Shown: piece by piece, positions 8,440 through 51,665 of the stretch
Position numbering within the stretch: the stretch's first letter is position 1
Layout: every line of letters starts with the position of its first letter
Assembly: GCF_017310505.1 (NCBI RefSeq)
Contig: NZ_CP065957.1
Span: 310,001 to 374,000 of the forward strand
Origin: Methylacidiphilum caldifontis
Lineage (GTDB): Bacteria; Verrucomicrobiota; Verrucomicrobiia; Methylacidiphilales; Methylacidiphilaceae
Direction of reading: 5' to 3'
Length of the DNA: 64,000 nucleotides
Notes under the pieces: model-generated
Told to the model about the DNA's origin: nothing
The model's input: the letters and a program-made list of their open reading frames with translations, nothing else
Database searches by the model: none
Translations under genes and position numbers: made by a program

Positions 8440-9753
8440 ATGAAGACTACCCAAAGAGATCTACCTGTTAAGCGCTCCACGGTCGATTCCTGGGTAATAC
8501 AAAGAGCAAAAGAAATTCTCGAAGGTAAAGAGCCAAAAATCATAAACAGGCTTTTCCCCTTTATAGGCCCTGCTTTTATCACGGCTATCGCCTACATTGA
8601 TCCGGGAAACTATGCCACAAATATCGAGAGTGGTTCGAAATTCGGATACAATCTGCTTTGGGTAGTTTTATTATCCAACTTGATGGCCATGTTCGTTCAA
8701 TGGCTCTCCGCCAAGTTAGGGATGATTACGGGGAAAAACCTTCCCGAATGGATAAGAGATTGGCTTAATTGCCCCTTGCTCTGTTACTTTTATTGGATTC
8801 AAGCCGAAGTCATGGCCATAGCCACAGATATGGCTGAATTTATAGGAGCAGCTATTGGCTTTAAAATCCTCTTTGGTCTTCCTTTAATATGGGGAGCCCT
8901 TCTTACAGCAACGATCACTTCCTTGATTCTTTATCTTCAAAAGCAAGGCTTCAGGCTGTTAGAAATAACCGTGGGTTCTTTCGTCGGCATCGTTGCCATC
9001 TGTTACCTATTAGAGATCTTTATAGCCCATCCTAATAGTACAGCCATTCTTCAAGGAATTCTCGTTCCAGAGCTCAAATCTGGAGACAGCCTTTATCTAG
9101 CAGCTGGCATTCTTGGGGCTACCGTTATGCCCCATGCTATATATCTGCACTCCGCTTTAACCCAAGACAGAATCGTTACAACCGATTCCTTAAGCAAAAA
9201 AAAATTGCTCCAATATTCCCTCGTTGACGTTTTTTTAGCCATGAGCATCGCAGGACTGATCAACATGGCTATGTTAATCGTTTCTGCAGCTACCTTTCAT
9301 CAAGAAAACGTCAGTCCAAATGGATTAGAAGCAGCTTACCGTACCCTTATCCCTATTTTGGGTCAATTTGCTTCTTTTGTTTTTGGACTGTCTTTGTTGG
9401 CTTCCGGGATTTCTTCATCAACTGTTGGAACACTGGCTGGACAGATCATTATGCAGGGATTCATCCATTTTAGTTTTCCGTTGTGGTTTCGAAGGCTTTT
9501 TACCATGATCCCAGCTATCTTTGCGATACTTCTAGGCATAGATCCCACCAAGCTGATGATCTTTTCCCAGGTGGTTTTAAGTTTTGGGATAGGCTTTGCC
9601 CTAGTCCCTCTTCTTCTCATTAGTCAGAACAAGAAAGTCATGGACAGTTTTGCTTTAGGTCCCTTAAGCTCTTTGATTGGATGGGCTATCGCCACCTGCA
9701 TCATTCTTCTAAACCTATTTCTTTTAGTAGATTCAATTTTGAAAATCTTCTAA
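8440..9753 (+). CDS. mntH: Nramp-family divalent metal transporter (manganese)
   Basis: A 437-residue inner-membrane protein with about eleven hydrophobic segments, importing Mn2+ (or Fe2+) with protons. The metal-site motifs are present: DPGNYATNIESGS in the first segment, supplying Asp and Asn ligands, and MPHAIYLHSAL in the sixth, corresponding to the bacterial MPHxIYLHS motif. It follows mntR by 37 bases on the same strand, a probable two-gene operon under metal control. In an acidophile, high proton and metal loads make tight control of such a proton-coupled importer likely; that point is inference. Confidence 0.93.
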   Translation: MKTTQRDLPVKRSTVDSWVIQRAKEILEGKEPKIINRLFPFIGPAFITAIAYIDPGNYATNIESGSKFGYNLLWVVLLSNLMAMFVQWLSAKLGMITGKNLPEWIRDWLNCPLLCYFYWIQAEVMAIATDMAEFIGAAIGFKILFGLPLIWGALLTATITSLILYLQKQGFRLLEITVGSFVGIVAICYLLEIFIAHPNSTAILQGILVPELKSGDSLYLAAGILGATVMPHAIYLHSALTQDRIVTTDSLSKKKLLQYSLVDVFLAMSIAGLINMAMLIVSAATFHQENVSPNGLEAAYRTLIPILGQFASFVFGLSLLASGISSSTVGTLAGQIIMQGFIHFSFPLWFRRLFTMIPAIFAILLGIDPTKLMIFSQVVLSFGIGFALVPLLLISQNKKVMDSFALGPLSSLIGWAIATCIILLNLFLLVDSILKIF

Positions 9754-9834
9754 AATGACCAAAAATGGAATTATCTATTCCCTAAAAGTACACAATGCTA
9801 ACCATCTTCAATTCCAGAGGGACATAGACCAAAT

Positions 9835-11805
9835 ATGAAAAAAATAACAAAGCCTCTTTTAGCTCCCTATAAACCCAAAGCCTTCAGCCTTTTTACTGAG
9901 TTGGATATTTATCTTTTTAAAAGAGGAAGTCACTATAACCTCTACGAAAAGTTAGGATCCCATCTTTTAAGTTATGAAGGGAAAAAAGGGGCCTATTTCG
10001 CTGTATGGGCCCCTAATGCTCAATGGGTTTCGGTCATTGGAAGCTTTAATGGATGGGATCCAAAAGCAAATCTGATGTCGTTTAGAGAAGATCAGAGTGG
10101 AATTTGGGAAACGTTTATCCCTGGTGTAACCAAAGGAGACCTCTATAAATATCACATCATTTCGAAAGCAGACGGCTCTGTCCACATTAAAGGAGATCCT
10201 TATGCCTTTTTATGGGAAATTCCTCCTAAAAGTGCCTCTGTTGTCTGGAACTTAGATTACACTTGGCTAGACAAAGATTGGATGGACAAAAAAGCTAAAC
10301 ACAACGGATTGAATTCTCCATGGAATATTTACGAAGTGCATTTGGGATCATGGAAAAGAAAAGCTGCCGAAAACAACCGTTTCCTCTCTTACCGGGAGTT
10401 AGCTCCCCTTTTAGCCAACTATGTAAAGGAAATGGGATATACACACGTTGAATTTCTCCCTGTCATGGAACATCCTTATTATGGTTCATGGGGTTACCAA
10501 TCCTTAGGCTACTTTGCTCCAACCAGTCGTTATGGTCTACCTCAGGATTTTATGTTTTTAATCGATTATTTGCACCGCAATGGTATTGGAGTAATCCTTG
10601 ATTGGGTACCTTCCCATTTTGCAACCGATGGACATGGTCTTGGAGTCTTTGATGGCACACACCTATACGAACATGCTGATCCTCGACAAGGCTACCACCC
10701 TGATTGGGGAAGCTATATTTTCAACTATGGTCGCTATGAAGTGAAGGAATTTTTGATCAGTAGTGCTCGGTTTTGGATTGAAAAATATCACATTGACGGA
10801 TTGAGGATAGATGCAGTAGCTTCAATGCTTTATCTCGATTACTCAAGGAAACCAGGAGAATGGATCCCTAATAAATATGGGGGAAATGAAAATCTAGAGG
10901 CTATCGCTTTTTTGCGCACACTGAGCGAAACGCTTTATAAGGAATTCCCCGGTATACAGCTTATTGCTGAAGAATCAACGGCTTATCCCATGGTTACTCG
11001 ACCTACCTATGCCGGAGGGCTCGGTTTTGGATTCAAATGGAACATGGGTTGGATGCATGACAGCTTATTTTACTTTTCCCTGGACCCCATTTTCAGGAAA
11101 TACCATCAAAACCGGCTTACTTTTAGTGCCTGGTATGCTTTTCAAGAAAACTTTATTTTATCACTTTCTCATGACGAAGTGGTTTATGGCAAAGGTTCAC
11201 TGTTGAGGAAAATGCCTGGCGATAACTGGCAAAAATTTGCAAACTTAAGAGCCCTTTTTTCGTACCAGTTCTTTTTCCCTGGACACAAACTCCTTTTCAT
11301 GGGATCGGAATTTGGACAATGGGACGAATGGTATCATGAAAAGAGTTTAGATTGGCATTTGGCTTCTGAAGGGTTACACAGTCAGCTTTGTTTCATGGTA
11401 AAATCTCTGAATTTTATTTACAAATCTGAAAGAGCTCTTTACGAAAGCAATTTTTCACCAAAAGGTTTTTACTGGATCGATTTTTCAGACTATGAAAAAA
11501 GTATCATCAGCTTTGTGCGTCGATCCCTTGATAACAAAGAACACATTCTTTGCATTTTTAATTTTACTCCCGTTCCTAGGGAAAATTATCTCATTGGCGC
11601 TCCTTATCCAGGGTATTGGAGAACAATTTTTAATAGCGATGCACCCGAATATGGAGGTAGCGGAATAGGAAATATTCAAGGCGAAGAAGCAGCAAAGCTT
11701 GTATGGCAAGGTCAACCCTATTCGCTTTCTTTAACCCTCCCTCCCTTAGCCTGTATAGCCTTCAAAAAGACAATACACAAAGATGAAGATCAGCTGGAGA
11801 ATTAA
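9835..11805 (+). CDS. glgB: 1,4-alpha-glucan branching enzyme
   Basis: A 656-residue GH13 branching enzyme that introduces alpha-1,6 branches into glycogen. An N-terminal CBM48 domain (about 45-140, with [18 protein letters not shown]) precedes the catalytic barrel. Visible motifs are [14 protein letters not shown], the nucleophile in [11 protein letters not shown] (Asp326), the acid/base in [10 protein letters not shown] (Glu379), and [13 protein letters not shown] with the third carboxylate. The C-terminal beta domain ends near residue 645. Length is typical of the shorter GlgB form lacking the extra N-terminal module. The last 23 bases overlap the start of the histidine kinase gene. Confidence 0.96.
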
Positions 11806-38865: not shown

Positions 38866-39753
38866 TTATTGAGGCGCTACACCATAGACTTTGAGTACAT
38901 TAAGCAAAGCATCCGCACATTTAGTGACATATACCATAGAGCTCTGCTCTTGCCCTTCAAATCCCTTAGGCGAGGTATAAGATTTGCTAAAAGGAAGCAT
39001 TTTAAGCTTACGAGCTGAATCGAGTTCCATAGCATAAAACGCTGCAAGAGGAGTCCAAAGAATCGCCGCATCAACTTTTCCTGCTAAAAGATCTTCTAGG
39101 GGTTTACCTAATTCTCTTTCCTTATCAGGATAGGCTTTAGCTTTTGCTTTCAGAGAAGTAGCGATTTCTTTAGCTGCACTATTGTCAAGCACGGCTACGG
39201 TTAACCCTGACAGTTTGCTATCTTCGGCTGATGAGAAATTTTTCGAAGAACCATCGAAAACGAGAACATATTGTCTTTGATAACCACTCAGCCGAGGTAG
39301 AACAGCTTTTAACCAATGAGGATCAGCTTCAACTATGGCACAGGATTTTTTATCAATATTGAGCTGTCCGGCAGCACCCCCACCTTGCTCAGCCGCAGCA
39401 ACTTTACAGTACCTAACAAAAGTGATGACTTTCCATATTTCGTCATCCGTAAGCACACCCCCAAACATTCGAGGCATGGTCTGTTGGGGGATTTGACCTT
39501 TAATAAGTTTAAAAAGAGTCTGATCATCGCTTCCAAAAACCCATGTGTCATCAATAAATGAAGGACACATTCCCCCTCCTCCTCCAGCTCCATGACATCC
39601 ATTACAACCCATCTTAAAATAAAGCTCTTTACCTTGCGAAACCACCTGTTTATCGGAAGGGGAATAGGGATTCTTTTGTTGAGCAAATAGTACACCAACT
39701 GATAAAGACAAAATTAAACAGCTAACAGCTATTTTTTTCATGTTATTATACAA
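38866..39753 (-). CDS. xoxGJ: Cytochrome cGJ: XoxG-XoxJ fusion, electron acceptor of methanol dehydrogenase
   Basis: A 295-residue periplasmic protein. A signal peptide (about 1-24, ending LFAQ) precedes a class-I cytochrome c domain (about 30-130) with haem motif C50-N-G-C53-H54 and a Met ligand in TMPRMFGG. From about residue 140 there is a shortened XoxJ/MoxJ-like periplasmic binding domain containing AGKVDAAILWTPLAAFYA. The fused arrangement matches the cytochrome cGJ described in Methylacidiphilum fumariolicum as the electron acceptor of XoxF. It lies directly downstream of xoxJ and xoxF. Confidence 0.92.
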   Translation of the reverse strand: MYNNMKKIAVSCLILSLSVGVLFAQQKNPYSPSDKQVVSQGKELYFKMGCNGCHGAGGGGGMCPSFIDDTWVFGSDDQTLFKLIKGQIPQQTMPRMFGGVLTDDEIWKVITFVRYCKVAAAEQGGGAAGQLNIDKKSCAIVEADPHWLKAVLPRLSGYQRQYVLVFDGSSKNFSSAEDSKLSGLTVAVLDNSAAKEIATSLKAKAKAYPDKERELGKPLEDLLAGKVDAAILWTPLAAFYAMELDSARKLKMLPFSKSYTSPKGFEGQEQSSMVYVTKCADALLNVLKVYGVAPQ

Positions 39754-39764
39754 AGAGTTATAGG

Positions 39765-40643
39765 TTAATCATTCTTTAGAGGAAGAGAGCCATCACTTAC
39801 TTGAGTTGTTTTGATCTCTTTCCCAACAGAAACAGTCTTTTGCAATACTGGCACGCCATACTCTTCAAGAATATGTTGAATTTCAACATGTTTCAGATCG
39901 ATGACCTGATCAAGTTTCTTTTTAAGCTCTTGGTCTCCTTTCCTTACACCCATGGAGATATCAAAAGTCACGGGAAATCTTGGATTATCACTTGTTAAGG
40001 GGATCATAACCAATGGAAAGTTTCTTTTTTTAATATAAAAGCCCGCCACAGGTCCCCATACCAAACCGACGTCAATCTTAGCGTTCATGACATCCTCTAC
40101 AACTTTTCCCGGAGATTCTTCCGGATGAAATATGGGATCAAAGAAAGGTGAATAACCCACGACATTCTCAATAATACCTCTTTCTGCAAGGAGCTGGTGA
40201 GGAGGACTGTTGATGAGGACCCCAATTTTGAGGGTTTTTAAAACAGGATCATTAAGTGATTGAATGGATAACCCCCGGTCTTTTTTATAAACCATGACGT
40301 AAGAAGTCCTATAATAAGGTTTAGTCGTAAGAACCTGACCCCAATTGGAAGGTACTCCAATGATCACGTTACATTTACCCAATTTTAATGTGTTTCTTAC
40401 TAACCCTCTTTGATGAGCAAACCAATAGTAAGACAAAGGCAGCTTGAGAGTATCGGCCACAAGCTGGGCAATTTTATTTTCAAAACCTTCCAATTTTTGG
40501 TTTGAAAAAGGAAGGTTCCCTGGATCAGCACAAGAACAGATGTCTTCTGCACTTGCACGCTGCCCTATAAAAGCCATTAAAAAGAGACAAGATAAAATTG
40601 TTCTTAAGCTCTTTCTAAATGATATTTCACAAAATCTAATCAT
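39765..40643 (-). CDS. xoxJ: XoxJ/MoxJ-like periplasmic binding protein
   Basis: A 292-residue exported protein. A signal peptide (ending about QRASA, residue 32) is followed by a solute-binding-like fold starting CADPGNLPFSNQKLEGFENKIAQLVADTLKLPLSYYWF. This opening, and GKCNVIIGVPSNWGQVLTTKPYYRTSYVMVY, are typical of MoxJ/XoxJ. XoxJ is thought to help activate or assemble methanol dehydrogenase. Here a complete XoxJ coexists with the J domain fused in cytochrome cGJ. It sits between xoxF (254 bases away) and xoxGJ (11 bases away). Confidence 0.9.
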   Translation of the reverse strand: MIRFCEISFRKSLRTILSCLFLMAFIGQRASAEDICSCADPGNLPFSNQKLEGFENKIAQLVADTLKLPLSYYWFAHQRGLVRNTLKLGKCNVIIGVPSNWGQVLTTKPYYRTSYVMVYKKDRGLSIQSLNDPVLKTLKIGVLINSPPHQLLAERGIIENVVGYSPFFDPIFHPEESPGKVVEDVMNAKIDVGLVWGPVAGFYIKKRNFPLVMIPLTSDNPRFPVTFDISMGVRKGDQELKKKLDQVIDLKHVEIQHILEEYGVPVLQKTVSVGKEIKTTQVSDGSLPLKND

Positions 40644-40832
40644 CGTGTCTTTCTTTTGGAAAACGTTAGCCTCTATTTTTTAAAACCGTAGTTTTGCTAG
40701 AGAATAACAGAACCCTATAGATTTTTTTAAAAAGACCTTTAAGACCTTTTACCTCAAGATCTCTTTTTAATGTAACCCATTTTTAGAGATTCTCTCCCCC
40801 ATTTATATGTTGATGATTTTTTGAAAACCAAC

Positions 40833-40877
40833 CTTTTAGCCGCTACCCTATTATATTTTCAGAGTAGCGGCTAGAGG
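40833..40877 (-). promoter_or_regulatory. Hairpin between xoxF and xoxJ, possible attenuator
   Basis: TAGCCGCTAC (40837-40846) and GTAGCGGCTA (40864-40873) form a perfect 10-base stem that extends with wobble pairs to 40833 and 40877, around a 17-base AT-rich loop. It lies 21-65 bases past the xoxF stop in the direction of transcription. The minus-strand sequence after it is AAAAGGTTGG, with no U-run, so it is better read as an mRNA-stabilising or attenuating element than as a classic terminator. The rest of the 254-base gap shows nothing else. Confidence 0.6.
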
Positions 40878-40897
40878 TTCAATCAATAATCGTAGCT

Positions 40898-42733
40898 TTA
40901 TTCCAACGAAAAGACGTAGAGTTCGCCACCAATGGTCGTAGCCTTTGGAAGTCCAGCTTGATAAGCAACACCCACGGCTCCTAGACCGGCGTAGGGATCG
41001 TCAGGAGGTAAGTTCTGGGCTACAGCAATACCAAACCACCCACCGACTCCAGAGTAAACAGCTACGTACTGTTTCTTATCAGGTCCCAAGAATGTAATGG
41101 GGTTGCCAATAATTCCTGAACCAAGTTTTTGCTGCCAGAGCACTTTTCCTGTCTTTATATCCACTGCTTTAAACCATCCATCCATCGTTCCATAAAAGGC
41201 GAGTCCACCAGCCGTAACCACTGGACCACTCCAAACAGGAAAATGTTCATGGATTTCCCATACTCTCTTCCCCTTAAGAGCATCGTAGCAAATGAATGCA
41301 CCATAATAATCGTCTTTGCCTTCATGCCCTGAATACATAAGCACGTTGGCGCCAACGTAAGGGGCTCCTGCTGTGTAGGTCGCTTCTACCCCTTCATAGT
41401 TCATACACATATTGTTGGTCGGAACATAAAATAATCCTGTCTGTGGATTAAAAGCAGCAGGTTGTTGGTCTTTGCCACCCATGGAATTAGGACAAATACC
41501 TTTGGTATCAACACCCTGTTTCGTCCTTTTTTCAGGGATCTCAACGGGTCTATCATTTTCCTTGCTAATTTCTTTTGCCCAATTTTCATAGACAAAAGGC
41601 TGAGCTTCAATTAATTGACCCGTTCTTCTATCCAATACGTAACCAAAGCCGTTACGATCGAAATGAACAAGACAAGGGGTTTTCTTTCCCTTTACCGTTA
41701 AATCTGGAAGAATCATTTCGTTGATTCCATCATAATCCCAGGAATCCCATGGAGTCATCTGGTATGCCCAACGTGCTTTACCCGTATCGGGCCGTCTGGC
41801 TATAATAGAACAGGACCATTTATTGTCTCCCCCCTTTCTCTGCTCGGCATTCCAAGTACCTGGGTTACCTGTTCCATAATAGAAGAGATCAAGAGCAGGA
41901 TCATAGCTATACCATCCCCAAGTTGTTCCTCCTCCAAGCTTCCACTGCTCCCCAGGCCAAGTTTTCGTTCCATCGCCGGGTCCACCATGTTGGGGAAATT
42001 CCTTATTGAAATCGGAATCGATCAAAACTTCCTCATCTGGTCCCTGGCTATAAGCCAGCCAAACTCTATTGCCCGTATTGATATCATAGGCGCCCACTCT
42101 TCCTCTGACTCCAAATTCCCCACCAGATACTCCAACAAGTACCTTATCTTTGACAACCAAGGGTGCACCCGTAATCGTTTCCCCTTTAGTCACGTCCGCA
42201 TGCTTGGTTTTCCAAAGTTCTTTTCCTGTATTTGCATCAAGAGCAATTATCTGTCCATCAAGGGTAGCCAAAAAGAGCTTGCCATTGGCATAAGCCAGTC
42301 CCCTGTTGACTACGTCGCAACAAGCCACTGCTACTGCTTGGCTATTCTGAACAGGAGTATATTGCCACTTAATTGCATAGGGCTTTTGAGTCAAATCAAG
42401 GGCATAAACATGGTTGGGATAGGCTGAATGAACGTACATCGTCGATCCAACGACCAGCGGTCCACCTTCATGTCCACGCAAGGCCCCTGTTGAAAAGCTC
42501 CAAGCAAGACGCAATCGGGACACATTTTTCGTATTTATCTGGGTCAGCTCACTAAAACGGGTATTTGCATAATTTTTGTTTTGCATGACCCATTGAGCTG
42601 GATCTTTCTCAAGTTTAACGAGCTCATCATTCGCTTTTGTAACGGGTAAAGAACCTAATAAGCCAAAAGCCGCTAAAAAGGTGGCTTTCTTTGCCACGGA
42701 ATATCTTTTAGGCTTTTTTAATTTAACTGTCAT
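40898..42733 (-). CDS. xoxF: Lanthanide-dependent methanol dehydrogenase XoxF
   Basis: A 611-residue PQQ enzyme oxidising methanol in the periplasm. The signal peptide ends at about Ala34 (VTKA/NDEL). The vicinal disulfide is Cys138-Cys139 (VACCDVV). Metal ligands are Glu206 (GGEFG), Asn290 (YGTGN) and Asp333, with the diagnostic extra Asp335 of lanthanide-type enzymes in WDYDG; calcium-type MxaF has Ala there. These positions equal 172, 256, 299 and 301 in mature numbering, matching the Methylacidiphilum fumariolicum enzyme. PQQ-propeller tryptophan-docking motifs recur through the chain. A very strong ribosome-binding site precedes it, and an inverted repeat lies in its control region. Confidence 0.97.
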   Translation of the reverse strand: MTVKLKKPKRYSVAKKATFLAAFGLLGSLPVTKANDELVKLEKDPAQWVMQNKNYANTRFSELTQINTKNVSRLRLAWSFSTGALRGHEGGPLVVGSTMYVHSAYPNHVYALDLTQKPYAIKWQYTPVQNSQAVAVACCDVVNRGLAYANGKLFLATLDGQIIALDANTGKELWKTKHADVTKGETITGAPLVVKDKVLVGVSGGEFGVRGRVGAYDINTGNRVWLAYSQGPDEEVLIDSDFNKEFPQHGGPGDGTKTWPGEQWKLGGGTTWGWYSYDPALDLFYYGTGNPGTWNAEQRKGGDNKWSCSIIARRPDTGKARWAYQMTPWDSWDYDGINEMILPDLTVKGKKTPCLVHFDRNGFGYVLDRRTGQLIEAQPFVYENWAKEISKENDRPVEIPEKRTKQGVDTKGICPNSMGGKDQQPAAFNPQTGLFYVPTNNMCMNYEGVEATYTAGAPYVGANVLMYSGHEGKDDYYGAFICYDALKGKRVWEIHEHFPVWSGPVVTAGGLAFYGTMDGWFKAVDIKTGKVLWQQKLGSGIIGNPITFLGPDKKQYVAVYSGVGGWFGIAVAQNLPPDDPYAGLGAVGVAYQAGLPKATTIGGELYVFSLE

Positions 42734-45503: not shown

Positions 45504-46652
45504 TTAAAAATCCCTTTCAATCAAATGGATAGCTCCTGTTTTGACCAATGCAGAAACACTGTCTCCATCCCTAATTTTCATTTCGATGAGAGAGCTCTGG
45601 CTTATAAGGGCATTAAGCATAATCCCGCAGTCAATGGAAAGGTGAGCTAAGCCTTCTGTCATTTTTATTTTCTTCACCCTACCCGTATAACGATTTCTCA
45701 CACTGAAAGAACCTTTTGGGATATCGCGATCGGCAAGTCCATCATTTTTAAGTATAGAAACATCTTCAGCGCGAAAGAGACAAAATATCTTTCTTCCCCT
45801 AAAAAAAACATCTTTTCTCTCTTTTAATACCGCTTCTAGCTGACCGATTGGCGTTTCTACCACCACTTTGCCTTGCTCTAAATAAACAATTTCTCCAGGG
45901 ATGATATTTTCTATACCAATAATAGATGCTACTTCTATCGTTGCAGGTTCAGAAAAAACTTGTCTTGTTTCGCCAAATTGAAGCAGTTTACCCGAACTTA
46001 TTATACCCACATATCGAGCCATCTGAATGATTTCAGCCTTATCATGACTAATCATGATCGTCAAACACCCACTTTGATAAGCGATCTCTTCTATAAGTCC
46101 CCTTATTTGTTCTTTAGCCTTAAAATCCAGCCCATTTAAAGGTTCATCTAGCAAAAGCAAGCTCGGTTGCCTAGCTATAGCTCTAGCCAGAGCGACCCTC
46201 CTTTTTTCACCCCCTGAAAGCGATGATGGCCACCTTGAAGCCAGCTGTTCTATACCCGTTTTTTTAAGGGCTTGGCTAATTTTCAGTTTTATATCTGCCC
46301 GGCTCAATCCTTCTTTCTTTTTTAGACCATAACCGACATTTTTCTCTACCCTCAGATGAGGAAAGAGTGCGTCCTCCTGGACCACATACCCAATATTGCG
46401 TCGATAAGGGGGAAGGTTGAGTTTTTTTTTCGTATCTACCCATATTTCTTCGCCCATGGAGATTATCCCCTGATCAGGGAAATCTAGACCAGATATGCAA
46501 CGAAGGAGTGTGGTTTTTCCACTTCCTGAAGGGCCATAGAATGCCGTCAAAGAAGATGGGCAAAGAGGAATAGTTAACTGCGCCTGTAGCTGGAGGGAAG
46601 GAGAAATATTTTTTTCTATTTCTAAATAAAAGACTTTGTTTTGTTGGTCCAT
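45504..46652 (-). CDS. modC: Molybdate ABC transporter ATP-binding protein ModC
   Basis: A 382-residue ABC ATPase. Walker A is GPSGSGKTTLLR, the signature LSGGEKRRVALARAIA, Walker B SLLLLDEPLNGLD, with a switch His after it. After about residue 240 a TOBE/Mop-type domain (about 300-370) follows; this C-terminal domain is characteristic of ModC. The start overlaps the end of modB by 31 bases. The operon order modA-modB-modC supports molybdate over sulfate. Confidence 0.93.
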   Translation of the reverse strand: MDQQNKVFYLEIEKNISPSLQLQAQLTIPLCPSSLTAFYGPSGSGKTTLLRCISGLDFPDQGIISMGEEIWVDTKKKLNLPPYRRNIGYVVQEDALFPHLRVEKNVGYGLKKKEGLSRADIKLKISQALKKTGIEQLASRWPSSLSGGEKRRVALARAIARQPSLLLLDEPLNGLDFKAKEQIRGLIEEIAYQSGCLTIMISHDKAEIIQMARYVGIISSGKLLQFGETRQVFSEPATIEVASIIGIENIIPGEIVYLEQGKVVVETPIGQLEAVLKERKDVFFRGRKIFCLFRAEDVSILKNDGLADRDIPKGSFSVRNRYTGRVKKIKMTEGLAHLSIDCGIMLNALISQSSLIEMKIRDGDSVSALVKTGAIHLIERDF

Positions 46653-47305
46653 CTGCTGTCTGCAGTCGAATATACAATAAAAAGAACAAGAAAAGAAAAG
46701 AAGAGAAGCACAAGTGCCGTTTTGTTCGCACTTTCATAGTCAAGCCCTTCAACTTGGTCATAGAGGGCAATGGAAAGAGTCCTTGTTTTGCCTGGTAAAT
46801 CTCCTCCTACCATAAGGACAATGCCAAATTCTCCTAGAGTATGGGCAAAACTTAAGACTGTTCCTCTCAGAATACCTTGAACGGAAAGAGGCAAGATAAC
46901 TTTTAAAAACGTAGCCAACTTGTTTTCACCGCAACATAAAGAAGCTTCAATAAGTTTGCTATCCACAAGGCTAAAAGAACCGACTAAATTCTGTACCATA
47001 AAAGGCAAACTATAAATAATAGAAGCAACAAGCAACCCTTCGAAAGAAAAAACAAGAGATTTTCCAAAAACTTTTGTATAGATATTTCCGAGAGGACCAG
47101 AATTTCCAAGAAGAATAAGCAAATAGAAACCTAAAACAGTTGGCGGCAACACCAAGGGAAGACTTACCAGGGTATCCACAATCATTTGCCAATGGCTTTT
47201 TTTTCCAAAGGAAAGCCAATAGGCGATGGGAAAAGATATAAGATACAACAAAACGGTTGTCCAAAACGATAGTTTAAAGCTAAGAAAAAGGGCCGCCCAA
47301 TCCAT
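46622..47305 (-). CDS. modB: Molybdate ABC transporter permease ModB
   Basis: An inner-membrane permease of about 227 residues with five or six hydrophobic segments. It has the permease-specific loop motif seen in ModB, near EASLCCGENKLATFLKVILPLSVQGIL, and the typical SLPLVLPPTVLGFYLL and HTLGEFGIVLMVGGDLPGKT. The open frame reaches 47368, but the ATG at 47305 (MDWAALFLSFKLSFW) matches the family start and lies 13 bases after the modA stop. Confidence 0.93.
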   Translation of the reverse strand: MDWAALFLSFKLSFWTTVLLYLISFPIAYWLSFGKKSHWQMIVDTLVSLPLVLPPTVLGFYLLILLGNSGPLGNIYTKVFGKSLVFSFEGLLVASIIYSLPFMVQNLVGSFSLVDSKLIEASLCCGENKLATFLKVILPLSVQGILRGTVLSFAHTLGEFGIVLMVGGDLPGKTRTLSIALYDQVEGLDYESANKTALVLLFFSFLVLFIVYSTADSRWTNKTKSFI

Positions 47306-47318
47306 CTTTAATATCCTT

Positions 47319-48113
47319 TTATGGCAAAAGACCATATTCTTTAAGGATTCTCCGGCTATTTTCAGCAAAAAGGAAATCTTTAAATCTTTCTGCTATCGAA
47401 AAATCGGCAGTCCGCTTGATAATTAAACCATACTGTAAAATTCTTGGATAAAACTGATGGGGAACTTCTACAAATACTCCTTCAGTTTTAGCTTTTGGCG
47501 ACAAAGCCAATGAAAGAGGTACAAAAGCGATTTGAGCATTTTTTGCTTCAGCAAACTGAAAAGCTTGTATGACATTTTCTCCCATGACCATTTTTTCTTT
47601 TAATCTATCCCACAATCCCGCTTTAATAAGAGCAGCCTTAGCGGCTTTCCCATAAGGTGCTCTTTCAGGATTTGCAATAGCAATTTTCAAGACTTTGCGG
47701 TTTAATAATAAATCTTTCCAATTAGCTTGTTCCTCTTTTTTAAACTGATCTTTATGCATCCAAACAACCAATTTACCTTCAGCATATTCAAATGGTTCGC
47801 CAACAGAATATCCCTTTGAAGCAAGCAACGAAGGATATTCTCTGTCTGCAGAAAAGAAGAGATCAAAAGGAGCTCCTCGAATAACTTGCTCGTAAAACTT
47901 GCCTGAAGCCCCATAGATGATTTCGACCCGAATATCCGGATTTTTCTGCTGAAATATCTCGACAATTTTAGGCAAAACAAATCTTAAATCCGCTGCCGCA
48001 GCAACAGTTATGACCGCTGATCGATTAGCCGGCTTAACACCCTCCTCGCTCCGAAGGGGAGATACCAGAAACAAGCCTAAAAACGAAAGAACTGTAAAAT
48101 ATATTAAACGCAT
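47319..48113 (-). CDS. modA: Molybdate-binding periplasmic protein ModA
   Basis: A solute-binding protein of about 264 residues with an N-terminal signal peptide (MRLIYFTVLSFLGLFLVSPLRS). Family motifs are TVAAAADLRFVLPKI at the start of the mature protein, VEIIYGASGKFYEQVIRGAPFDLFFSADREYP, and IANPERAPYGKAAKAAL. An upstream ATG at 48134 adds seven residues. I prefer 48113 because a perfect palindrome lies exactly between the two ATGs. It delivers molybdate to ModBC for molybdenum-cofactor enzymes such as formate dehydrogenase. Confidence 0.9.
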   Translation of the reverse strand: MRLIYFTVLSFLGLFLVSPLRSEEGVKPANRSAVITVAAAADLRFVLPKIVEIFQQKNPDIRVEIIYGASGKFYEQVIRGAPFDLFFSADREYPSLLASKGYSVGEPFEYAEGKLVVWMHKDQFKKEEQANWKDLLLNRKVLKIAIANPERAPYGKAAKAALIKAGLWDRLKEKMVMGENVIQAFQFAEAKNAQIAFVPLSLALSPKAKTEGVFVEVPHQFYPRILQYGLIIKRTADFSIAERFKDFLFAENSRRILKEYGLLP

Positions 48114-48131
48114 AGTTACTTTTAAGTAACT
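48114..48131. promoter_or_regulatory. Palindrome at the modA start, candidate operator
   Basis: AGTTACTTTTAAGTAACT has perfect 8-base arms and a 2-base centre. It lies between two possible modA start codons (48134 and 48113). It could bind a ModE-like or other regulator, though it does not match the classic ModE box. The rest of the gap 48135-48340 has no other feature I can support apart from the fdhD ribosome-binding site AGGAAATAAAG at 48330-48340. Confidence 0.45.
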
Positions 48132-48340
48132 CATAAATCATTGTCAATTTTTCAATCCTCGCTTCTTTCTTCTTAAAACCCCTACATGATTGTTTTTCAT
48201 CTTCATAATCTTCTTCGACTTTATCTTTAAGTGGTTTTCTTTTTAAAAAAGCTAATGCTTAAGGGTTATTTGAATATTATCTTTTATCTCAAACAAAGAG
48301 TTTTGTACAAAAAAGCCATAGAGATAAGCAGGAAATAAAG

Positions 48341-49180
48341 ATGACGCAGAGACCAGGTTCTAAAGTTCCAATCCGCATCTGGGAGTTTACTGAAGAAACA
48401 AAAAAAAATAGGGCAGATTACCTAGCTACTGAAGAGCCATTAGAGATCCGTCTTAAGGCTGGAGAGGAAGAAAAAGTCCTAGCCGTTACGATGAGAACTC
48501 CGGGAGCTGACTTTGATTTAACCCTAGGCTTTCTGTTTTGTGAAGGAGTAATTTCTAGTTTGGATGAGGTGCACTCGATTTCCTATTGCCTGCGAAAAGA
48601 AGAAGAACAGAGATACAATAGTCTTTTGGTTATTCTTAATCAATCCCGGCTGCCAGCAATGGGATCATTTGAAAGGCACTTCATGACCTCGAGTGCCTGT
48701 GGAGTTTGTGGTCGAGCTACAGTGGATCTATTGGTTACAAAAAAAAAGGAAAACAGCCGTTTTCCTTTTAACTGGAAAATACCTTTGGAGGTCATCTACA
48801 AACTGCCCCAAGAGTTCCAAACAAAACAAAATCTCTTCAAAACCACTGGTGGATTACATGCTGCAGCCATATTCGATTTAAAAGGCAATCTAATCAATAT
48901 TAAAGAGGATGTTGGAAGACACAACGCTATGGATAAGATCGTTGGATGCGCTTTGCGCGAAGGGCTGATTCCATTGGATAAACACATCGTGATGGTTAGC
49001 GGCAGAGCCAGTTATGAGCTTCTTCAGAAAGCCTACATGGCAGGGCTCAGATTTTTTTGTTCCGTATCCGCTCCAAGCAGTCTTGCCCTTGTCGTTGCCC
49101 AAAAATTCTCTATTACCCTTGTTGGTTTTTTACGCAAAAAAAGATTTAACGTTTACAGTGGGATTGAAAGAATCGAATAG
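48341..49180 (+). CDS. fdhD: Formate dehydrogenase accessory sulfurtransferase FdhD
   Basis: A 279-residue FdhD, the protein that passes sulfur from a cysteine desulfurase to the molybdenum cofactor of formate dehydrogenase. The conserved Cys pair is in SSACGVCGRAT; other family features are TPGADFDLTLGFLFCEGVI, TGGLHAAAIF, VGRHNAMDKIVG and VMVSGRASYELLQKAYMAG. It is divergent from modA, which fits a shared need for molybdenum. The formate dehydrogenase genes themselves are not in the window. Confidence 0.95.
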   Translation: MTQRPGSKVPIRIWEFTEETKKNRADYLATEEPLEIRLKAGEEEKVLAVTMRTPGADFDLTLGFLFCEGVISSLDEVHSISYCLRKEEEQRYNSLLVILNQSRLPAMGSFERHFMTSSACGVCGRATVDLLVTKKKENSRFPFNWKIPLEVIYKLPQEFQTKQNLFKTTGGLHAAAIFDLKGNLINIKEDVGRHNAMDKIVGCALREGLIPLDKHIVMVSGRASYELLQKAYMAGLRFFCSVSAPSSLALVVAQKFSITLVGFLRKKRFNVYSGIERIE

Positions 49181-49200
49181 GTAACTTGCTTAACTCTTGA

Positions 49201-49231
49201 CCTCCTCCCCCGCCTGAAGGCGGAGGATTCC
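49201..49231 (-). repeat. IS200/IS605-type right-end hairpin
   Basis: On the minus strand, CCTCCGCC at 49219-49226 (reverse complement) pairs through a TTCA loop with GGCGGGGGAGG (49204-49214), leaving a small bulge. A GGAAGGAAT sequence precedes it and TCAAG follows. Such hairpins form the right ends of IS200/IS605 elements, directly downstream of tnpB, and in complete elements the region encodes the 3' part of the omega RNA scaffold. Confidence 0.65.
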
Positions 49232-49540
49232 TTCCTGCCACTAGGGGCCTAGTTGCACCCCTTGGATCAGTCGAACAACCAACTCCCCGGCGCTACACCG
49301 GAGAACAGGCGATCCGGGCCAGTCCAGCCCTTAATATGTTCATCGCTCCCACTGTGTCGGCATGGCCCTCATACCCGCACCTCTCGCACCGGAATGTCGT
49401 TTGCCTCGGCCGATTCGCTTGGCTTACATGTCCGCATTCCGGCACCGGACAAGTCTGGCTCGTGTACGGGGCCGGTACGGTCCTCAGCCAGCCCCCTAAC
49501 CCGTGGAGCTTGTAGCCCAAGAACGTATCAATGCCTTTTC
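49229..49540 (-). pseudogene. tnpB: TnpB C-terminal remnant (IS200/IS605 family)
   Basis: The minus strand reads the end of a TnpB protein: YKLHGLGGWLRTVPAPYTSQ, then the zinc ribbon with CPVPEC and CERC, then the RuvC-III segment HADTVGAMNIL with its catalytic Asp. The first zinc pair is C-x4-C rather than the usual C-x2-C. Only about 75 codons remain (stop at 49293), and an in-frame TGA near 49541 marks the break. The piece is far more GC-rich than its surroundings, so it came from a GC-rich donor. The transposase tnpA and the left end are absent. Confidence 0.8.
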
Positions 49541-49739: not shown

Positions 49740-51251
49740 ATGATGAAGTTTACATTTAAGAAAACTTTTTTCATTATTCCTTTTTTTCTTTTGTCTCTTT
49801 CCCTTTTTTGGGGCATGAGCCAATGGCCAGGAACAACGACCCGAAGCAAGGCTGAGATAACAAAATTTAGATCTGAATTAAGCAAAGAAATTGATGAATT
49901 AACTTCTCTGACCGATCGACTTGGAAATGAAAAAAGGCAATTTGAAAGTCTTTATGAAAAAACATTGATGTCTTCCCTTCCTGATCAGATACCACTTTCT
50001 TTAATGGAATCTTCTCTCTTTAATTATCAGTCAATGCTCGATGAACTGACGACAAAAATTTCAAAAATCCAATCTGACATTTCATCTCGAGTCGCTCAAT
50101 GGAACCTTTCATCCCAATCCGACCTTTTCGATCCTACACTGCTGAACCGGTGGACATCGATAAATTCTCAAGCGGATAATTTTTCCTCCGCCCTTCATAT
50201 TCTCCAAACCGATATCCAGCTATCTTATCAAAGACGCAACGAACTGCTTGCTGCTGAAAGTCGTCAAAAACAAGAGGAAAAAAAACAACAGGATTTAGCC
50301 GCTTCCAAGGCTGCGGCCTACTCGACGACCAATGCCTCTACTCTATCTAACGCTATTTCTCCATCCGCTCAACCTTTTGTCGGTAGCGAAGAAAACAATA
50401 CTCAGTTGACTTACTCTGGTAATCCATGGGGAGGATATGGCTATGGTTGGGGCTGGGGATGGCCATGGTGGTGGTGGGGATGGGGATTTGGTTTTGGTTT
50501 TGGATGGGGTTTATGGTGGCCTTTCTTATGGGGTCCATTCGGTTTTTTTCCTTTTGTCATTGAACGAAACGTTTTTATTACGAAAACAACCCCGACTCAA
50601 CAACATCAGGGTATGGCTCAGCATGGGGGTGCAGCCCCCCACTCTCTTTCTTCAGCCCATCCTTTTAATCATCCTGGCTCGTTCCATACCAACCAACACA
50701 ATATGACTCACACAGTCTCTGCTCACCCAGCTCATAACCTCGCCCATTCTACAACACAAGGTCCTCTTCATAACGATTTTCATAACCTTCTTCACCAAGA
50801 CCATCAAAACCTTGCCGCTCTGAATCAAAGAAACTTGGCCCATACGCAACCTACAGGTTCTCTTTCCCCCGTTCATCCTCAACACCTGACTAACCATGGC
50901 ATTCATGACATTGCTGGTCATCCTCTCCATTCTCCCTCAACAGGTCATCTTGCTTCTCATTTTGGTTCTCCATCCTCTTTTTCTGGACACATGGGAGGTG
51001 CTCCTCTCCACTCCTTCTCTGGTGGCGGCACCTTTCATGGCAGTAGTGGACTTTCCCACGGATTTATTTTCCATGGGGCAACAGGGTTAGGTCATGGAGG
51101 CTTTTACGGTCATCAGGGCTTTATTGGACATCCTGGAGGCTTCTATGGAGGAATGAGAGGATTCCATGGGGGAATGGGAGGCTTCCACGGGGGGATGGGA
51201 GGATTTCATGGGGGAATGGGAGGTTTTCATGGGGGAGGATTCCACCATTAA
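49740..51251 (+). CDS. Secreted Trp/Gly- and His-rich repeat protein, function unknown
   Basis: A 503-residue protein that I do not recognise. A signal peptide (about 1-27) leads into a helical, charged domain (about 36-190) with heptad-like spacing. Residues 229-272 are an extreme aromatic-glycine block (GYGWGWGWPWWWWGWGFG and onward), which could insert in a membrane or pack as a low-complexity sheet. Residues 281-503 hold 38 histidines (17 per cent), first Asn/Gln/His-rich and then near-perfect GGFHGGM heptad repeats. A metal-binding or matrix-forming envelope protein is the plausible reading. No ribosome-binding site is visible; the gene is 560 bases after fdhD, with the TnpB remnant between. 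Confidence 0.8.
   Translation: MMKFTFKKTFFIIPFFLLSLSLFWGMSQWPGTTTRSKAEITKFRSELSKEIDELTSLTDRLGNEKRQFESLYEKTLMSSLPDQIPLSLMESSLFNYQSMLDELTTKISKIQSDISSRVAQWNLSSQSDLFDPTLLNRWTSINSQADNFSSALHILQTDIQLSYQRRNELLAAESRQKQEEKKQQDLAASKAAAYSTTNASTLSNAISPSAQPFVGSEENNTQLTYSGNPWGGYGYGWGWGWPWWWWGWGFGFGFGWGLWWPFLWGPFGFFPFVIERNVFITKTTPTQQHQGMAQHGGAAPHSLSSAHPFNHPGSFHTNQHNMTHTVSAHPAHNLAHSTTQGPLHNDFHNLLHQDHQNLAALNQRNLAHTQPTGSLSPVHPQHLTNHGIHDIAGHPLHSPSTGHLASHFGSPSSFSGHMGGAPLHSFSGGGTFHGSSGLSHGFIFHGATGLGHGGFYGHQGFIGHPGGFYGGMRGFHGGMGGFHGGMGGFHGGMGGFHGGGFHH
51138..51236 (+). repeat. 21-base tandem repeats at the 3' end of the His-rich gene
   Basis: Four full 21-base units start at 51138, 51159, 51180 and 51201, with a partial fifth at 51222, each encoding GGFHGGM or a close variant (the first encodes GGFYGGM). 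Third-position differences between the units show that they are not brand new and that the peptide has been kept. Confidence 0.9.
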
Positions 51252-51272: not shown

Positions 51273-51665
51273 TCAGTGTTGTGCCGCTTGGTCCATCTCT
51301 TTTTGGATTTTTCCCGCTTCGTTTCCGATTGACTTTTCAACTTTTCTTAGCCGATCTTGGAATTCTTTTTCCCACTTATCCCAGTTTTTTTGGAAGTCCT
51401 GCTGTTCCTTTATATACTCCTGATGAAGAGCTGAAGCCGTTTTTTGGTTTTGTTTAGCCACGGCCTGCTGCCAATCTTCAAATATTTTTACGATCCGATT
51501 ATGCTTTTTCTTTAGTTCGGAAACTTTTTGATCTTTAAAGCTATTTTTACTTTTAGCAGGGCCACTTTGAACAGAACCGGTTACAGTTTGATCTTTACCC
51601 CAAGTTTTAAAGGGAAAGACTACTAAGATAATGAGAGAAATTAGAGGAAAAACAACTTTCATCAT
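51273..51665 (-). CDS. Small exported coiled-coil protein
   Basis: A 130-residue protein with a signal peptide (about 1-23, ending KTWG). The mature part is highly charged and helical (VSELKKKHNRIVKIFEDWQQAVAKQNQKTAS..., EFQDRLRKVEKSIGNEAGKIQKEMDQAAQH), without Cys. I do not recognise the family. It converges with the Trp/His-rich gene, leaving 21 bases, and is divergent from the peroxiredoxin gene with only 13 bases between start codons. A periplasmic structural or chaperone-like role is possible (inference). Confidence 0.75.
   Translation of the reverse strand: MMKVVFPLISLIILVVFPFKTWGKDQTVTGSVQSGPAKSKNSFKDQKVSELKKKHNRIVKIFEDWQQAVAKQNQKTASALHQEYIKEQQDFQKNWDKWEKEFQDRLRKVEKSIGNEAGKIQKEMDQAAQH

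Follow-up and report, generated by a model that had tools for sequence, protein, structure and literature searches.

A histidine-rich protein restricted to the Methylacidiphilaceae as a possible inner-membrane-anchored envelope scaffold

In the 64,000-nucleotide stretch of the Methylacidiphilum caldifontis genome analysed here (the window), the plus-strand gene at 49740..51251 encodes a 503-residue protein (P0001, family A) that may serve as a structural envelope scaffold, anchored in the inner membrane and special to the Methylacidiphilaceae. We put this forward tentatively, starting from observations on the gene, its orthology, its constraint, its predicted helical domain and a paralogue of the same build. 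The coding sequence, called as an open reading frame with an ATG start and present as a single copy in its own genome, is backed by orthologues and by selection. It begins with a hydrophobic signal peptide or signal anchor (residues 1-30; 49740..49829; Wimley-White, AlphaFold2), followed by a predicted three-helix coiled-coil domain (residues 31-200; 49830..50339; AlphaFold2), a Trp/Gly/Phe block that is the most constrained segment (residues 227-276; 50418..50567; pN, hydrophobicity) and a His/Gly-rich low-complexity tail (residues 277-503; 50568..51248; composition, pLDDT <50), all on the plus strand. A recount of the reading frame agrees with an earlier sequence-only reading, which had reported a 44-residue block of Trp, Gly, Tyr and Phe and 38 histidines in the last 223 residues: within the block (residues 229-272) we count 13 W, 14 G, 8 F, 2 Y, 5 P and 2 L, which gives W, G, Y and F 37 of the 44 positions. 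The tandem GGFHGGM repeats it had noted at the C-terminus were recovered by Tandem Repeats Finder as a plus-strand array of 21-bp units in 4.9 copies (51135..51236). Among the 52 open reading frames of the window, the next highest counts are 13 His per 223 residues, against the 38 of P0001, and 5 Trp per 44 residues, against 13; the binomial P values against the window-wide composition are ~8e-14 for Trp, ~2e-21 for W/G/Y/F and ~3e-23 for His. The feature is not a product of chance, since it is kept by orthologues in ten other genomes and is under purifying selection.

An AlphaFold2 model of P0001 built with 11 orthologues predicts helices at residues 6-77, 86-120, 126-129 and 132-195, mostly with pLDDT >90, and the longer three bear out the charged helical domain described earlier from the sequence. 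Structure prediction, which had been suggested as a check, yielded a confident helical bundle up to residue 195, but nothing reliable for residues 198-503, where block and tail lie (tail pLDDT <50). The signal peptide of the sequence-only reading stands as a hydrophobic N-terminal segment (Wimley-White octanol value of residues 9-27, -15.6 kcal/mol), but its cleavage is in doubt: since the first predicted helix takes in this segment, the protein may keep it as a signal anchor instead of losing it as a signal peptide. Per 19 residues, the Trp/Gly block scores -17.1 (octanol) and -18.2 kcal/mol (interface), and the aromatic blocks of the A, B and C proteins introduced below are all very hydrophobic and interface-seeking on the Wimley-White scales. 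As its hydrophobicity is similar to that of the N-terminal segment and it seeks interfaces, the block is unlikely to lie free in water, and it could form a second transmembrane segment that puts the tail in the cytoplasm. Foldseek searches with the A and B models returned generic helical bundles only, none at E <=0.001; the match to the helical bundle of MIC60, an inner-membrane-anchored coiled-coil scaffold that P0001 may resemble, was weak (9qwr, E 0.015, TM 0.65 by target) and unspecific, with syntaxin Habc and gp41 mimics scoring equally well or better.

P0001 had also been singled out as an undescribed component of no known family, and the similarity searches support this. Pfam gave no match of any kind to P0001 up to E=10, with neither an EF-hand nor a FecR domain (PF04773) present, and a Pfam-A scan of its paralogue P0002 found no families; the DUF3300 domain was matched by neither protein. 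NCBIfam returned only sub-threshold coiled-coil noise for P0001 (highest score 11.6 bits, cut-off 300), and both a PDB sequence search with P0001 and an Rfam search were without match. DUF3300-type proteins are exported and have a helical N-terminal part, a Trp/Tyr/Pro stretch followed by a Gly-rich tail, and Gly/His/Arg-rich C-termini; the likeness serves as a lead only. No described family that combines the parts of P0001 was found, and A, B and C may together form a new orphan family of putative function. A literature search on Methylacidiphilum with histidine-rich or glycine-rich proteins turned up nothing relevant, and a term search of the papers on the SolV lipoprotein and porin gave no mention of P0001. 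Envelope proteins that join an anchored coiled coil to a Gly/aromatic low-complexity tail form a general class; what is unusual in P0001 is the constraint on its Trp/Gly block and, possibly, the use of histidine as an acid-permanent charge.

The distribution of the family was followed in 60 genomes of the order, 13 from the Methylacidiphilaceae and 47 from other families. Orthologues of family A are present in 5/5 Methylacidiphilum (67-78% identity) and in 6/7 Methylacidimicrobium genomes (34-37% identity), the one without a match being 83% complete; none was found in G008, presumably a Methylacidithermus-like organism, or in the 47 genomes of other families. Genus names derive from named loci (L013, Methylacidiphilum sp. 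Yel; L014, Verrucomicrobia bacterium LP2A, which we take to be a Methylacidimicrobium), and we assume that G014, G024 and G036 are the strains SolV, Kam1 and V4. Sequence-profile relatives of family A were found only within the Methylacidiphilaceae, and so were FHGG-repeat tails in a pattern search of 241 Verrucomicrobiota genomes. The FHGG matches outside the family that we inspected were rejected as antisense or chance frames, as was a profile match in G272, whose frame runs antisense to other genes. A phylogenetic profile against methanotrophy, also suggested earlier, proved uninformative: pmo (PF02461) and a close xoxF occur in 13/13 Methylacidiphilaceae and both are absent from the 47 other genomes, so that pMMO is confined, within the order, to a single family and the correlation is confounded by ancestry, and G008, with pMMO and XoxF and no family A gene, breaks it. 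We therefore gave it little weight and set it aside as evidence. One orthologue (G028, L007 1450-3000) shows seemingly compensating frameshifts just past the aromatic block, where a second, out-of-frame stretch also matches the family profile.

A single same-build paralogue exists in the M. caldifontis genome, the 441-residue P0002 (family B; G000:C1:1575023-1576345). Family B is present in 5/5 Methylacidiphilum, in each of which it is transcribed divergently from a gene for an L,D-transpeptidase (PF03734). Its AlphaFold2 helices (2-46/52-67, 74-111, 116-119 and 122-163) match the layout of A, and both models show a confidently predicted helical domain that runs on from the anchor without a break. 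Family C is represented by a 647-residue copy in G008 whose tail has GGFRGG/GGFHGG motifs, the majority of them with Arg. The helical domains of B and C align with confidence (hhalign 99.3%, 7e-21), whereas the profile score between A and B/C is weak (31.7%, E 5e-4). Like A, the B and C proteins have a signal anchor, a similar helix layout, an aromatic/Gly block and a GGFHGG-type C-terminus, with ~22% identity over the alignable part; unlike A, they have an Asn- and Arg-rich middle and fewer His, and they lie at other loci (B near nuo genes and the L,D-transpeptidase gene). FecR-domain proteins of Methylacidimicrobium also resemble A in an alternating Gly-hydrophobic block and a GGFRGGGGFHGGGG[HR]R tail but differ in their N-terminal domain (FecR, PF04773). 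Their Gly-Met/Phe/Trp blocks and GGF[R/H]GGGG tails indicate that such modules recur on exported proteins; in two of them (L038 592-2412 and L046 ~8539-10494), GMGMGFGFGWPM-like blocks recur and the tail is of the GGFRGGGGFHGGGG type. In G008, the contig-end fragments L045 1-833 (an N-terminal part ending in a Trp block) and L091 1-508 (a tail starting the contig) could stem from a single gene that the assembly broke inside the repetitive block. Beside the full 647-residue copy, G008 also has a 182-residue relative (L044 9111-9659) that consists of the anchored helical domain only, without aromatic block or tail.

The family A gene lies in a conserved order of xoxG-xoxJ-xoxF, an MFS gene, a HAD gene, modCBA, fdhD, the family A gene and a gene for a Bcp-type peroxiredoxin. 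In the window, this region includes xoxF, xoxJ and xoxG of the lanthanide methanol dehydrogenase cluster (38866..42733, minus strand), modCBA for a putative molybdate ABC transporter (45504..48134, minus strand), which most relatives, though not every one, have at this locus, and the co-oriented upstream neighbour fdhD (48341..49180, plus strand; PF02634, 6e-65); MoeA, MobA and MobB genes are also nearby. Wherever the locus is readable, fdhD directly precedes the family A gene, and it still does so in G032 and G039, where modABC is missing from the locus. The two genes lie 0-27 bp apart in five Methylacidimicrobium and ~71 bp apart in three Methylacidiphilum; the distance is 559 bp in the M. 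caldifontis window and 2161 bp in G036, and both of these long gaps hold mobile-element DNA. The 559-bp gap is mostly accounted for by what is left of an IS605-type element, with a TnpB zinc ribbon (49194..49540, minus strand; PF07282, 4.8e-12; GC 61-63%), which has 4 copies in the genome, the others being 94-96% identical; the gap in G036 (L018 10684-12524) holds an IS607-like element with a MerR-HTH resolvase and a TnpB in two overlapping frames. Two different TnpB-bearing elements hence occupy one fdhD-downstream spot in two Methylacidiphilum species. Convergent to the family A gene and 21 bp past its stop codon lies a small secreted coiled-coil gene (51273..51665, minus strand), found at this place only in Methylacidiphilum and without a Pfam match above cut-off. 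In Methylacidimicrobium, where the locus is readable, the gene for a 320-residue secreted Trp-rich protein without Pfam match (L014 9563-10528 and its orthologues) overlaps or directly follows the family A stop codon; this protein is absent from Methylacidiphilum.

Within Methylacidiphilum, pN is 0.012-0.021 in the aromatic block and 0.02-0.07 in the final repeats, compared with 0.165-0.23 in the helical domain and 0.14-0.23 in the His region; pS is near saturation (~0.5-0.8), which makes omega rough and leaves pN clear. No other segment of family A evolves as slowly as the Trp/Gly block, whose low pN indicates that it is functional. This constraint is unusually strong, and any mechanism must account for it. 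In residues 277-460, His is kept in 86-90% of within-genus comparisons and Ser, Thr, Asn and Gln in 51-67%, which argues that His itself matters. From residue 266 to the end (238 residues), the tail contains 4 Asp and Glu, the whole protein is free of Cys, and the net charge of the tail shifts from ~+42 at pH 2.5 to ~0 at pH 7.5.

For P0001 as an envelope scaffold, we infer the topology, the membrane docking, the polyanion binding and the scaffold role itself. The N-terminal transmembrane helix, if it is not a signal peptide, would anchor the protein in the inner membrane, and the rigid three-helix bundle would stand in the periplasm. The Trp/Gly/Phe block would either partition into a membrane interface, be it the inner leaflet of the outer membrane or a neighbouring membrane, or self-associate, and the His/Gly tail, fully protonated at a periplasmic pH of 2-3, would bind anionic envelope polymers. 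In Gram-negative bacteria, the pH of the periplasm is assumed to track that of the surroundings; a literature search found no measurement of periplasmic pH in Methylacidiphilum. If the tail is periplasmic, all 38 His would be protonated at pH 2-3, so that it would carry ~+42 and be a poor metal ligand, which, together with its few carboxylates, favours a structural role. The relatives in G008 swap many tail His for Arg, an exchange that keeps the charge and not the metal affinity. As a role for the 38-His tail, a positively charged hold on the envelope in acid seems likelier than storage of metal. The L,D-transpeptidase gene beside paralogue B counts for an envelope role, as weak evidence because synteny among these close species is extensive. 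Against the scaffold, the His-to-Arg exchange is common in B and C and rarer within family A, and the helical homology of A and B rests on a weak profile score and matching predicted helix layouts. The matrix or cell-surface role entertained in the sequence-only reading is a plausible candidate.

The same reading had also proposed binding of copper, nickel or a lanthanide, which the evidence gathered here does not support. The His/Met tail would buffer or deliver Cu, Ni or lanthanide to the enzymes of methane and methanol oxidation, or bind metal in the cytoplasm, which in Methylacidiphilum is at pH 6.5 at an external pH of 1.5-3.0 (PMC8024496); such a role would be rescued above all if the aromatic block spanned the membrane and so placed the tail in the cytoplasm. 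The 38 His with the FHGGM repeat, the preferential conservation of tail His and the presence of xoxF in the same conserved region speak in its favour, as does the absence of lanmodulin from verrucomicrobial methanotrophs, which leaves lanthanide handling open (PMC7907005). Periplasmic His would nonetheless be protonated, and the Met of the repeat is poorly conserved across genera. Lanthanides prefer carboxylates, and lanmodulin-type proteins bind them at EF-hand or carboxylate-rich sites, in contrast to a tail with 4 acidic residues and no EF-hand in a protein without Cys. Moreover, no recognised metal genes adjoin those of the B and C relatives, which use Arg, mostly so at GGF[H/R]GG in the G008 tails, and G008 manages pMMO and XoxF without family A. 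We consider a metal-binding role improbable.

The tight linkage to fdhD is left without account by the scaffold and feeds a rival, in our judgement a distinctly doubtful one, in which P0001 is co-expressed with fdhD (and modABC) and either supports or tethers the maturation of formate dehydrogenase or concentrates molybdate on its cationic tail for ModA. The constancy of the neighbour, the short distance of 0-27 bp in five Methylacidimicrobium, suggestive of co-transcription, and the nearby modABC, MoeA, MobA and MobB genes are consistent with it. Yet fdhD and the family A gene stay together in G032 and G039 without modABC at the locus, mobile elements part the two genes in two Methylacidiphilum species without loss of either, FdhD is cytoplasmic, and the paralogue is not beside molybdenum genes.

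We regard as quite unlikely a pH-switched self-assembly of the kind seen in squid-beak histidine-rich proteins, with P0001 soluble in acid and condensing once the local pH exceeds 6. Beak peptides stay in solution at pH 3-4, with full protonation at pH 3.3-4, and condense once their His lose the proton at pH 6-7 (PMC6884462). P0001 shares with beak proteins and suckerins a modular build of Gly/His/aromatic repeats, for which homology is neither claimed nor found, and its tail is near zero net charge at neutral pH; but the beak proteins have no membrane anchor and depend on Tyr, which is nearly absent from the tail, and the periplasm of this organism should not reach pH 6. That the tail is functionless low-complexity sequence drifting by repeat slippage, as a 21-bp array with copy number differing between species might suggest, can be dismissed in view of the very low pN in block and repeats against near-saturated synonymous change, with orthologues in two genera keeping length, order and composition.

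A more specific form of the envelope scaffold, which we hold to be unlikely as it stands, is an acid-adapted tether that replaces the usual ones: an anchored coiled coil would insert its nearly invariant Trp/Gly block into a second membrane, and its polyHis tail, strongly polycationic solely by virtue of a periplasm at pH 2-3, would hold together the envelope of these extremely acidophilic methanotrophs. Should the scaffold reading in general prove right, histidine would act as a permanent positive charge and not as a metal ligand, a use of the residue that only proteins exported by acidophiles can make, and caution would be due before labelling His-rich exported proteins of acidophiles as metal binders. 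The description of structural proteins of Methylacidiphilum has only just begun (PMC10260701, PMC10542722). How bacteria growing at pH 2 build their envelope is poorly known, and P0001 and its paralogue offer testable targets.
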